Source: Nitrososphaerota archaeon (lineage in GTDB: Archaea; Thermoproteota; Nitrososphaeria; Nitrososphaerales; Nitrosopumilaceae). Taken from it: a stretch of DNA of 33,593 nt. The stretch's first letter is position 1. Each line of letters starts with the position of its first letter. Below the pieces are notes generated by a model that was not told the origin of the DNA, made no database searches, and saw nothing but the letters and a program-made list of their open reading frames with translations. Position numbers and translations under genes: made by a program. The stretch covers positions 1-33,593 of the forward strand of contig VBPL01000024.1 in the NCBI GenBank assembly GCA_005877205.1, in the 5' to 3' direction. Of the stretch, positions 13,104 to 17,493 are shown one piece after another.

Positions 13104-14168
13104 GTGGATCATCACAACTTTCGAGGAAAAGATATCCCACACTTGAAAATTAAGCCAAACATGGGTATTGATGATTTGGTTGAGATCTTTGCAGGCACCG
13201 CTTATAATGCACGGCAGTTAGGGGAGGCGGCAAAACTGTATCGCAAAATGATTGAAGATGATGCTACCATTTGCCTTACAATATCTGGAGCTATGACTCC
13301 AGTCGGATTTGGTGGCCTTTTCAAATCTCTTATAGAAAGAGGATTCGTTGATTGGATAATAGCAACAGGAGCAAATGTATACCATGAGGATCATTTTGCC
13401 TGGAATCTTCCTGTAAAACAAGGGCATTTTGAGGTAGATGATATGATACTGTATGAGAAGGACATTGTGAGAATAAGAGATGTCTACATCAAAGGAGAAG
13501 AAACTCTGAAGGCAGAAGACAAAATTGTACAGAAAATATTTACCAATAAACTGATCAATAAACCATTTACAACTGCGGAATTCTGTAACGCAATGGGCAA
13601 GTATTCGAAGGAACATTCGAAGTATCCAGAAAAGAGTTTTGTTGTGGCGGCTTATGATTATGACGTTCCAGTTTACGTTTCAACTTTAAAAGATTCATCA
13701 CTTGCACTAGATTTGGCTCCGCTTAGACTGGCAAACAAGATTTACAATGTGGATTTTGTCCGAGAAATACTGGAGCAAGCTGCAATCGTATACCATTCAA
13801 AAAAGTCTGGGATAGTTGAGATCGGAGGAGGGGTGCCAAAAAATACGGCACAACAAACTGGTCCACTACTGGATCAGATACTTGGACTCGGACATGGAGG
13901 ACAAAACTACATAATTCAGATAACCGACGCAAGACCGGATACGGGAGGACTCTCTGGAGCAACTTTGCAAGAAGGAAAAAGTTGGGGCAAAGTCAAGGAT
14001 TCACATGAAGATGTAATAATGGTTTATGCGGATGCAACTATTGCATTTCCAATACTGTGTCTCTATGCGTTGAGCACGGAAAAACCCAGAAAACCAAAAC
14101 GGCTTTACAAGAAATTGGGAAAATACTACACTGACTTGACTAAGACTTACTTTAACAAAAGACGTTAG
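13104..14168 (+). CDS. dys: deoxyhypusine synthase family protein (DHS-like)
   Basis: 354 aa, GTG start. DHS transfers the aminobutyl group of spermidine, or related amines, to a lysine of aIF5A. The NAD-binding TGAN (88-91) and GGG (241-243) motifs and the active-site Lys296 in SWGKV are present, as is the DARPD...SGA block. Two conserved stretches differ from canonical DHS: the K-H-H after GGG is K246-N-T, losing the catalytic His, and the TDGSLGD-type loop reads KDSSLALD. It could be a diverged true DHS or a DHS-like enzyme acting on another amine. It shares a 4-bp stop overlap with the convergent small zinc gene. Confidence 0.8.
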   Translation: MDHHNFRGKDIPHLKIKPNMGIDDLVEIFAGTAYNARQLGEAAKLYRKMIEDDATICLTISGAMTPVGFGGLFKSLIERGFVDWIIATGANVYHEDHFAWNLPVKQGHFEVDDMILYEKDIVRIRDVYIKGEETLKAEDKIVQKIFTNKLINKPFTTAEFCNAMGKYSKEHSKYPEKSFVVAAYDYDVPVYVSTLKDSSLALDLAPLRLANKIYNVDFVREILEQAAIVYHSKKSGIVEIGGGVPKNTAQQTGPLLDQILGLGHGGQNYIIQITDARPDTGGLSGATLQEGKSWGKVKDSHEDVIMVYADATIAFPILCLYALSTEKPRKPKRLYKKLGKYYTDLTKTYFNKRR

Positions 14169-14377
14169 AATCTATCGTATCTGGCTCTTTCTACCTCTCT
14201 CTCGTCCTTGGTTGCTTTTTTCCATTCCTTGTAATGTTCTTTACAAAGAACAGTTTTCTTTGACCCTGCTGGAATACTCAAACCAGTTCCTTCTACCTTA
14301 GAGGTCGACAAAGAACGAACGCCATCTTTGTCACATCCTGAGACGTTACATTTTGCGCCTTTTGATATGATCCCCAT
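14165..14377 (-). CDS. small putative zinc-binding protein (C-x4-C ... C-x2-H)
   Basis: 70 aa. C10-x4-C15 and C45-x2-H48 (LCKEHYKEW) would make a treble-clef-like knuckle, followed by a charged helical tail (KKATKDEREVERARYDRF). The middle (ST-SKVEGTGLSIPAG) is probably a beta hairpin. A TATA-like gatataatatt is centred about 26 bp upstream of the ATG. The C-x2-H ending matches the proteins at 10162 and 24989. Function unknown. Confidence 0.75.
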   Translation of the reverse strand: MGIISKGAKCNVSGCDKDGVRSLSTSKVEGTGLSIPAGSKKTVLCKEHYKEWKKATKDEREVERARYDRF

Positions 14378-15425: not shown

Positions 15426-15435
15426 GAATTTAAAT
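15426..15435 (+). promoter_or_regulatory. TATA box for the 36-aa zinc ribbon and pfkB-nadK genes
   Basis: gaatttaaat, about 27 bp before ATG 15458, is divergent from the rps26e box. It probably drives the zinc ribbon, PfkB and NAD kinase genes together. Confidence 0.45.
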
Positions 15436-15457
15436 CACCGATTTGTTAAGATGACCT

Positions 15458-15568
15458 ATGCGGGGCTTGTGCCACATATGCCTAAGTTCCAACGTTGAGT
15501 TAACCTTAGAGAAGGGCCAAGTAATCTGTCATTCTTGTCTTCAAAAACAGAAACAGAAAAAGGACTAA
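15458..15568 (+). CDS. 36-aa zinc-ribbon microprotein
   Basis: ATG 15458 to TAA 15568; an in-frame TGA two codons upstream fixes the start. C5-x2-C8 (LCHIC) and C24-x2-C27 (ICHSC), 15 residues apart, make a minimal zinc ribbon, followed by a Lys/Gln-rich tail (QKQKQKKD). It lies 25 bp before pfkB and has a well-placed TATA box, so it is the likely first gene of the zinc ribbon-pfkB-nadK unit. Function unknown. Confidence 0.7.
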   Translation: MRGLCHICLSSNVELTLEKGQVICHSCLQKQKQKKD

Positions 15569-15593: not shown

Positions 15594-16469
15594 ATGAAAC
15601 TGGCAATATTTTCTCATTGTACGATAGATGAAATATCGCGAAGCGATAACGTCGTTGAAGCGGCTGGAGGTCCTGCATGTTATTGCGGAATAACTGCAAA
15701 AAACATGAAATTTGATGTTGATCTTCATACTAAGGTAGGAGCAGATTTTACATTTGTCTCTGGTTTAGAGAGCAAAGGCATCTTTCTTTCCAAAAATTCG
15801 ATCTCAAGTAATCCGACTACAAGATTCTTATTGAAAATATCTGACTCAGAGAGGGAATTATATTTAAAAACAGTGTGTGACCCGATAGAATTTAAAAACT
15901 CAGACGCTGATGGCGTTATCGTAAGTCCAGTCTTTAACGAAGTTCCAGAAGAAACTCTTGATCAGATAAAGAACTCTTTTGATTTCACTTTACTTGATCC
16001 GCAGGGGTATCTTCGCCGTGTTGGAAACGATAAGAAAATATATTTGGAAAAAACATTGTTTGATTTGTCGAAAATAAGTGCCATCAAAACTGATCCGGAT
16101 GAGGCTTTCTATCTTACAGGACTCAAAGACAAGGAAGCCATGGTTGCTTTGCAGAAAAAAGGAATCAAGTACGTCCTTTACACTAACAAGCAGGATATTA
16201 CAATGCTTGCAAAACAACGACTTTATAATTTGCGTATTCCGAACATGCAAATTGGAGATACAACTGGAGTAGGAGACATATTCTGCGCAGCCTTTGCATG
16301 TGCATATCTGAAAGAAAATGACCCTCTTTGGGCAATTTGTTTTGCGGTAGGTGCGGCACAGGCTGCTCTTGAGACAAGAGCAACCGCACTTTCCAAAGTG
16401 CCGTATGGTGGTGATATAGAACGAAATGCTGCCTACTTGTATAATCTTGCAAAGTTTTCTCAGGTCTAG
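15594..16469 (+). CDS. PfkB-family (ribokinase-like) carbohydrate kinase
   Basis: 291 aa. The N-terminal GGPACYCG motif and the C-terminal signature GDTTGVGDIFCAAF, with catalytic Asp in GVGD, define the family. It phosphorylates a sugar, nucleoside or polyol with ATP. The substrate cannot be decided; inositol or nucleoside kinases of archaea are in this group, and the nearby phosphatidyltransferase makes a cyclitol kinase an attractive but unproven guess. Second gene of a rightward unit, 31 bp before nadK. Confidence 0.85.
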   Translation: MKLAIFSHCTIDEISRSDNVVEAAGGPACYCGITAKNMKFDVDLHTKVGADFTFVSGLESKGIFLSKNSISSNPTTRFLLKISDSERELYLKTVCDPIEFKNSDADGVIVSPVFNEVPEETLDQIKNSFDFTLLDPQGYLRRVGNDKKIYLEKTLFDLSKISAIKTDPDEAFYLTGLKDKEAMVALQKKGIKYVLYTNKQDITMLAKQRLYNLRIPNMQIGDTTGVGDIFCAAFACAYLKENDPLWAICFAVGAAQAALETRATALSKVPYGGDIERNAAYLYNLAKFSQV

Positions 16470-16500: not shown

Positions 16501-17493
16501 GTGAGAGTTGCAATATACAGTCAAGACCAAGAACAAACAGTCAAGTCAGTTAAACTGTCTTTGGAGAGCCACGGCGTAGAATCAGTAATTCTAGGAAATA
16601 AAACGCTAACAAAAGATGTTGACTATGTAATCGTGACAGGCGGAGACCGTGGAGTAAGAACATACTTTCATAAATTTACTAACTCAACCATCCCGGTTTT
16701 AGGAATCAATGAATTTGAATCAAGCGGTTATCTAGCTCAGACTGATCTTAAAGAATTTCCAACTTACCTGAACAGACTTAGGAAAGGCGACTTTACGATA
16801 GAACACCTCACACGAGTTGATGTAAAAATAGATGGAAAGCTTGTCTATCCAGCACTAAACGATGTTGCAATCTTTTCTTCTAAGAGCGCCACCTTGGTTG
16901 AGCATGTCTTGCGTGTAAATGGCGAAGAGGTCTGGCATGACAGTAGCGATGGTGTGATCGTATCTACACCAATTGGTTCGTCTGCATACTCAATGTCAGC
17001 TGGTGGACCAGCGATTTATCAAAATTCCAAGGTACTATGCATTGTTTCAGTAAATTCACTTGATATTACAAGACGCCCACTTATAGTGCCAGAGGATAGC
17101 TTCATAGAAATTGATGACATATCGTCCAGTTTGCGATGCGAAGTCGTAATGGACGGCAAAGACAGGTTCAAAGTTGACAAAATTGTAACTTGCACAAAAT
17201 ATCCTCAACCCGCAAATGTCATTCGTATGAAAAAGGATTCTACTACGGTTTCGGCACTTACAAAAAAGGTCAAACTTGCAGACGAGCTCCTAAACATGCC
17301 TCCAAGTTCCAAATTATTACTGAAAACTCTCCAATACGAAGGCTCACTTACTCAAAAAGAACTAGCCGCAAAGACCCTCCTTCCTGACAGAACGGTTAGG
17401 CTGGCTTTGCGACACCTACTTGACAAAGGTTACGTAAAAAGAAGGGTTTCACTGCGCGATACTCGTCAAAGAATTTATGAGGTTCCAAAGTAA
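16501..17493 (+). CDS. nadK: NAD kinase with C-terminal winged-helix domain
   Basis: 330 aa, GTG start. Makes NADP+ from NAD+ and ATP/polyphosphate. Kinase domain at about 1-255: GGD (47-49), ND (120-121), SDGVIVSTPIGSSAYSMSAGGP-type motif at 149-170 (D150, STP 155-157), and VMDGKD (216-221). The normally invariant GGDG-T/N loop is GGDRGVRT here. Residues of about 268-328 form a winged helix-turn-helix (LTQKELAAKTLLPDRTVRLA recognition region, then a K-R-R wing), MarR/ArsR-like, not part of ordinary NAD kinases. This suggests a kinase that binds DNA or regulates in response to NAD(P). Convergent with pyrG, 1-bp gap. Confidence 0.88.
   Translation: MRVAIYSQDQEQTVKSVKLSLESHGVESVILGNKTLTKDVDYVIVTGGDRGVRTYFHKFTNSTIPVLGINEFESSGYLAQTDLKEFPTYLNRLRKGDFTIEHLTRVDVKIDGKLVYPALNDVAIFSSKSATLVEHVLRVNGEEVWHDSSDGVIVSTPIGSSAYSMSAGGPAIYQNSKVLCIVSVNSLDITRRPLIVPEDSFIEIDDISSSLRCEVVMDGKDRFKVDKIVTCTKYPQPANVIRMKKDSTTVSALTKKVKLADELLNMPPSSKLLLKTLQYEGSLTQKELAAKTLLPDRTVRLALRHLLDKGYVKRRVSLRDTRQRIYEVPK

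Follow-up and report, generated by a model that had tools for sequence, protein, structure and literature searches.

We analyzed a 33,593-nucleotide stretch of a Nitrososphaerota archaeon genome (contig VBPL01000024.1 of GCA_005877205.1; hereafter the window) and find that a gene joining a NAD kinase fold to a winged helix probably encodes a kinase-derived, NAD(P)-sensing transcription factor that controls NAD biosynthesis. We put the probability of this reading at about 0.72. The evidence is computational and comes from the fold of the protein, the loss of a conserved kinase loop, a retained NAD site, the gene neighborhood, a palindromic sequence, and the tie between that palindrome and the fused protein. 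Somewhat less firmly, we lean towards placing the protein in an ancient archaeal family of NAD(P) sensors, built on a NAD kinase without its phosphate loop, which would share one operator from Thorarchaeota to the ammonia oxidizers and have nearly a single target, nadA, in some genomes. No description of a NAD kinase carrying a helix-turn-helix or winged helix, or of an archaeal NAD regulator, was found in the open-licence literature, and, judging by the papers searched, no regulator of archaeal NAD biosynthesis would have been described before this one. The control of archaeal NAD synthesis likewise yielded no description, and a named protein, operator, and target make the question testable, both in culturable ammonia-oxidizing archaea and by heterologous protein work. 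The relevant features of the window are as follows.

15458..15568, + strand: 36-aa zinc-ribbon-like protein (CxxC...CxxC), first gene of a conserved unit found in most Nitrosotalea loci
15594..16469, + strand: PfkB-family kinase, directly upstream of the fused gene (PF00294, synteny)
16501..17493, + strand: NAD-kinase-like/winged-helix fusion gene (ORF, relatives, Pfam, AlphaFold2)
16639..16662, + strand: codons of the degenerate GGDG loop, GGDRGVRT, residues 47-54 (GGDGT in canonical kinases)
16855..16863, + strand: LND codons, residues 119-121, the N-(D/E) NAD-binding motif (N120 invariant in 79 orthologs)
16948..17010, + strand: codons of the Gly-rich motif, DGVIVSTPIGSSAYSMSAGGP, residues 150-170, intact (sequence comparison, 79 orthologs)
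17242..17292, + strand: linker helix joining the kinase fold to the winged helix, residues 248-264 (AlphaFold2)
17302..17484, + strand: predicted winged-helix DNA-binding domain, residues 268-328 (Pfam, AlphaFold2)
17386..17427, + strand: recognition helix, residues 296-309, with R297, T298, and R300 conserved (AlphaFold2, 79-sequence alignment)

The fused gene is a 330-aa ORF with a GTG start. An initial annotation made from the sequence had recognized NAD kinase motifs followed by a winged helix at residues 268-328, and Pfam, AlphaFold2, and Foldseek all agree with this assignment. Pfam places NAD_kinase at residues 33-97 and NAD_kinase_C at 119-228, both exceeding the gathering score, while HTH_24 exceeds its cut-off at 272-313 and MarR_2 sits at its cut-off. 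In an AlphaFold2 model built on an alignment of 79 orthologs (mean pLDDT 89, pTM 0.72) the NAD kinase fold runs to about residue 242, assigning this part of the protein to the NAD kinase fold. The tail, whose identity had been left to structure prediction, is modeled with high confidence as a textbook winged helix, with helices at 268-280, 285-292, and 296-309 and strands at 313-316 and 324-327; the curated-cut-off profile match and this fold together make it a winged helix of the MarR/HTH_24 type. The top Foldseek matches to the model are all NAD kinases, and the Protein Data Bank yielded no chain matching across both domains. The concern that the extension arose from mis-joined ORFs and would be lacking in close relatives can be dismissed, as it is present there in the same frame and without stops. 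By the names attached to its nearest loci, the window's genome belongs to the genus Candidatus Nitrosotalea. The gene is essentially full length, at 86-92% identity, in 31 of 36 congeners of the window's genome, is split across frames in two (G016 and G036), and is absent from three (G012, G024, and G028) whose assemblies are 54-84% complete. The frame-split copies L065, L066, and L158, from G036 and from Nitrosotalea sp. TS (G016, the source of L158), may reflect assembly error or decay.

Two roles had been suggested for the C-terminal domain, namely reporting NAD(P) state to transcription or mediating oligomerization. Under the latter, the protein would be an ordinary NAD kinase isoform using its winged helix for oligomerization or protein contacts only. 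NAD kinases do assemble into dimers and tetramers, and in human NADK the C-terminal helix lies at the dimer interface (PMC12052686), but nothing in our results favors such a role here. Few parts of the family are as well conserved as the recognition helix, in which R297 is invariant and T298 and R300 are almost invariant across 79 sequences, and the neighborhood and palindrome evidence presented below would have to be coincidence. We regard this explanation as very improbable. Reporting of NAD(P) state to transcription, by contrast, is strongly supported by the nadA, nadC, and aspartate dehydrogenase neighbors, the palindrome, and their pattern of presence and absence.

The fused architecture is widespread in archaea. 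It was found in the ammonia-oxidizing genera Nitrosopumilus, Nitrosotenuis, Nitrosopelagicus, Nitrososphaera, Nitrosocosmicus, and Nitrosocaldus, in Terraquivivens, Vulcanisaeta, a Thorarchaeon, and one MAG labelled Thermoplasmatota, and in many other Thermoproteota families, usually with an intact separate NAD kinase alongside. In nearly all congener genomes a short NAD kinase of about 271 aa, lacking a winged helix, is present as well, and that of the window's genome (L031; G000:C57:9139-9759) has the loop GGDGT; with this intact enzyme available, NADP synthesis does not require the fused copy. In a tree of kinase domains the fused proteins form one group with a support of just 58, which makes a single origin likely and no more. 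A third, very divergent NAD-kinase-like group (L045, L046, and L047, from families f7, f8, and f10) has GGDG and a poorly conserved Gly-rich motif.

The strictly conserved GGDG motif that marks NAD kinases is lacking in the fused protein. As the initial annotation had observed, the loop at residues 47-54 is GGDRGVRT (TGGDRGVRT at residues 46-54), GGDG having become GGDR. The loop was readable in 118 fused proteins; GGDG[T/S] occurs in none of them, and GGDG is wholly absent from 115, the other three having GGDGD in sequences related to each other. Arg or Lys occupies the fourth loop position in 103 of the 118, and the variants include GGDKG, GGDRG, GTDSD, GDDRD, GRDRD, GTDRF, GSDRT, and GEDSD, with the first Gly and the Asp (G-x-D) retained in every one of the 118. 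By comparison, 33 of 34 unfused NAD kinases keep GGDG and the remaining one has SGDGT, a count from which L158, L164, and L171 were left out as broken pieces of fused genes. The dinucleotide site has been kept: N120, D150-G151, P157, G159-S160, Y163, G168-G169, and D218-G219 are invariant in the 79 fused orthologs, and both the N-(D/E) motif and the Gly-rich TPxGS(S/T)AY motif of NAD kinases are present. The N-(D/E) motif has an NAD-binding role (PMC12052686), and the GGDG loop sits at the ATP phosphates and the NADP 2'-phosphate in published structures (PMC5890153). To judge from sequence, this pattern most likely describes a dinucleotide site that still binds but has been released from catalysis. 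With GGDG[T/S] lost and the site kept, the protein would most likely bind NAD(H) or NADP(H), and its phosphorylation of NAD has most likely been lost or become slight. We would guess that a basic residue near the 2'-phosphate position could favor NADP(H).

Since the loop loss is common to all fused members, a former kinase is more likely than the "metabolic kinase" of the initial annotation, and the idea of a true NAD kinase with a mere loop variant is likewise weakened by the uniformity of the loss. A related alternative is that of a bifunctional trigger enzyme, which would still act as a NAD kinase while binding the palindrome to control nadA, with its catalytic state as the signal. The loop Asp is kept in all fused members, so residual kinase activity is possible, and the NAD-binding motifs are all intact. 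Nevertheless, the loop Gly and the Thr/Ser after it are changed in the fused members at just the position facing the ATP phosphates and NADP 2'-phosphate, whereas unfused kinases, including those of the same genomes, keep GGDG. We therefore consider a trigger enzyme unlikely, though deserving of attention.

The genomic surroundings connect the kinase-derived regulator to NAD biosynthesis. When genes neighboring distant fused genes were clustered and their names checked with NCBIfam, mostly above curated cut-offs, quinolinate synthase NadA was the most recurrent cluster outside the ammonia oxidizers (13 distant loci, within three genes), closely followed by NadC and aspartate dehydrogenase; NCBIfam confirmed nadA, nadC, and NadX. 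By our own estimate, based on about 1700 genes per genome, chance would place nadA within three genes at about 0.15 of 44 loci. The fused gene adjoins nadA, mostly divergently, in at least eight lineages, the nadA-linked loci belonging to families f4, f29, f33, f50, f67, and f82, the Nitrososphaeria lineage L160, and the Thorarchaeon L169, and more such divergent pairs are visible from the coordinates of other loci. At several nadA loci nadC, aspartate dehydrogenase, and the fused gene lie in one gene run; in two runs containing the fused gene and nadA (L230:1489-3033 and L234:1406-2953) NadC and aspartate dehydrogenase are themselves fused into a protein of about 515 aa. Several lineages lacking nadA have a transporter gene opposite the fused gene instead, encoding an MFS aromatic-acid:H+ symporter in L057, L059, L203, and L204 and an APC permease in L218, L221, L223, and L224, and L206 has an ABC substrate-binding protein in that position; all are candidate importers of an NAD precursor. 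Counting against a regulator, nadA lies on another contig in the window's genome and does not adjoin the fused gene. Simple co-occurrence of nadA and the fused gene proved a loose link, with nadA alone in many Thermoproteota and the fused gene alone in some. In the sampled genomes of family f42 (G304, G415, G444, G498, and G516 compared with G297, G331, G349, and G525) the two genes look mutually exclusive, which also counts against this reading.

A palindrome, GGCAA-N3-TTGCC, recurs at these promoters. It was first spotted in divergent intergenic regions and upstream of nadA in the window's genome, and its occurrence at the fused gene was tested against 200 dinucleotide shuffles. With at most one mismatch it lies upstream of the fused gene at 17 of 52 distant loci, against a mean of 0.34 and a maximum of 3 in the shuffles; the 17 loci come from ten lineages, and related loci are not independent. 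The Thorarchaeon has a perfect copy, GGCAACAATTGCC, upstream of its fused gene. At all 28 Nitrosotalea nadA loci the palindrome is present with zero or one mismatch, around position -90 relative to the conserved start. In a set of genomes that took no part in motif discovery, it was present upstream of nadA in 14 of 18 with the fused gene and in none of 22 without it. Exact copies are rare: one in G118, at nadA; two in G107, one of them at nadA; and six in the window's genome, where only that between nadX and nadA (G000:C44:27450-27462) is clearly intergenic. The copy of the nadA promoter is TGGCAAATATTGCCA. In G105 a tRNA-like sequence replaces nadX upstream of nadA, and the palindrome remains with one mismatch. 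Other promoters count against the regulator reading, as no recognizable palindrome was present at those tested in families f32 and f45 and parts of f33 and f50, and the window has no good copy near the operon of the fused gene. Upstream regions of 23 Nitrosotalea operons, when aligned, contained no palindrome, and their conservation was limited to the TATA region. The suggestion that the protein acts at its own promoter (15426-15458) in the window is thus not borne out, and the predicted target there is nadA on the other contig.

These results also bear on whether a different regulator acts on the palindrome and nadA, the fused protein being a passenger of the neighborhood. These genomes do encode further proteins whose winged helix is of this type, and another member of that family could in principle read the palindrome. 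However, the fused gene is preceded by the palindrome even where a transporter replaces nadA (L204, L203, and L059), and it is missing at nadA in the 22 genomes without the fused gene. A passenger role accordingly appears improbable.

We infer that the fused protein binds DNA and a dinucleotide ligand, and propose the following mechanism. The former NAD kinase fold, with its dinucleotide site kept, would be the sensor, and ligand binding would change how two (or four) winged helices sit on GGCAA-N3-TTGCC. The target in the window's genome would be nadA, whose quinolinate synthase serves de novo NAD synthesis; lineages lacking nadA would have the neighboring transporter gene as target, its substrate probably being an NAD precursor. 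A dinucleotide-free dimer may bind, activate nadA, and limit its own gene, with NAD(P) releasing the dimer; control could also have the opposite sign. Archaeal activators usually bind upstream of the TATA box. The nadA palindrome is upstream of a TATA-like box, at a distance of about 10 bp in several Thermoproteota and of about 40 bp in ammonia oxidizers, and this position would fit activation when NAD is low. At several divergent loci the palindrome stands 22-32 bp ahead of the start codon of the fused gene, where it could block transcription, as would fit auto-repression.

A comparison with known systems shows both likenesses and disparities. NAD kinases (PF01513/PF20143; e.g., A. fulgidus 1suw, L. 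monocytogenes NADK1, and P. aeruginosa 7qvs) have the fold, the N-(D/E) motif, and the Gly-rich motif in common with the fused proteins. In contrast, the fused members are without GGDG[T/S], have an added linker helix and winged helix, and are encoded among NAD biosynthesis genes with a separate intact NAD kinase present. As the GGDG motif is missing, the fused protein should not be filed as NAD kinase (EC 2.7.1.23); fused genes are probably annotated simply as such, and metabolic models of ammonia-oxidizing archaea may consequently count a non-kinase. The bacterial repressor of NAD genes NrtR consists of a Nudix-type sensor and a winged helix (PMC6800001). Like NrtR, the fused protein joins a winged helix to an enzyme-like fold taken as the sensor, is encoded next to nad genes that it is predicted to control, and has a predicted palindromic operator. 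Unlike NrtR, it is archaeal, has its own palindrome, and has a NAD kinase fold as its sensor, with no match to a Nudix domain in Pfam or NCBIfam; it would work like NrtR in these respects and is not a member of that family. An essential kinase turned sensor would parallel the use of the Nudix fold in bacteria. NadR of enterobacteria, which is NAD-responsive, combines a helix-turn-helix with NMN adenylyltransferase and ribosylnicotinamide kinase. Both proteins join a DNA-binding domain to an NAD-metabolism enzyme domain, but the NadR enzyme domains differ and its helix-turn-helix is N-terminal, and neither enzyme domain has a match in the fused protein in Pfam or NCBIfam. NiaR is a niacin-responsive repressor of the Bacillus/Clostridium group, Fusobacteria, and Thermotogales (PMC7713382). 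It too is a winged-helix regulator, acting on genes for NAD biosynthesis and niacin uptake. The ligand domain of NiaR is a 3H domain, unrelated to that of the fused protein, in which Pfam finds no 3H match. The fused protein is a member of none of these three families.

The placement of the gene in a unit with a PfkB kinase and a 36-aa zinc ribbon holds, both being upstream on the same strand with synteny kept. The order zinc ribbon, pfkB, fused gene is retained in most Nitrosotalea loci examined, where the fused gene converges on pyrG (CTP synthase), and pfkB directly precedes the fused gene in most ammonia-oxidizing archaea. More than 20 Nitrosotalea genomes conserve the 36-aa protein in front of these two genes; it belongs to no Pfam family, and no function tying it or PfkB to NAD was found. 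Elsewhere in the window, a 70-aa ORF on the minus strand (14165-14377), beside the deoxyhypusine synthase gene and without a Pfam family, keeps its place by the CDP-alcohol phosphatidyltransferase gene in distant ammonia oxidizers (L052, L055, and L056). The winged-helix type of the fused protein also occurs in two other settings. In Nitrososphaeria (L067-L071; e.g., L068 at about 427-1428, + strand) it is fused to a ComA-like protein of the phosphosulfolactate synthase family (PF02679, E 3.9e-64), which by sequence appears to be a second enzyme-like protein bearing it. Stand-alone winged-helix proteins of 85-92 aa with a C-terminal Cys-rich segment (L072, about 456-731; L073, about 357-611) show 42% identity to the domain in the window.
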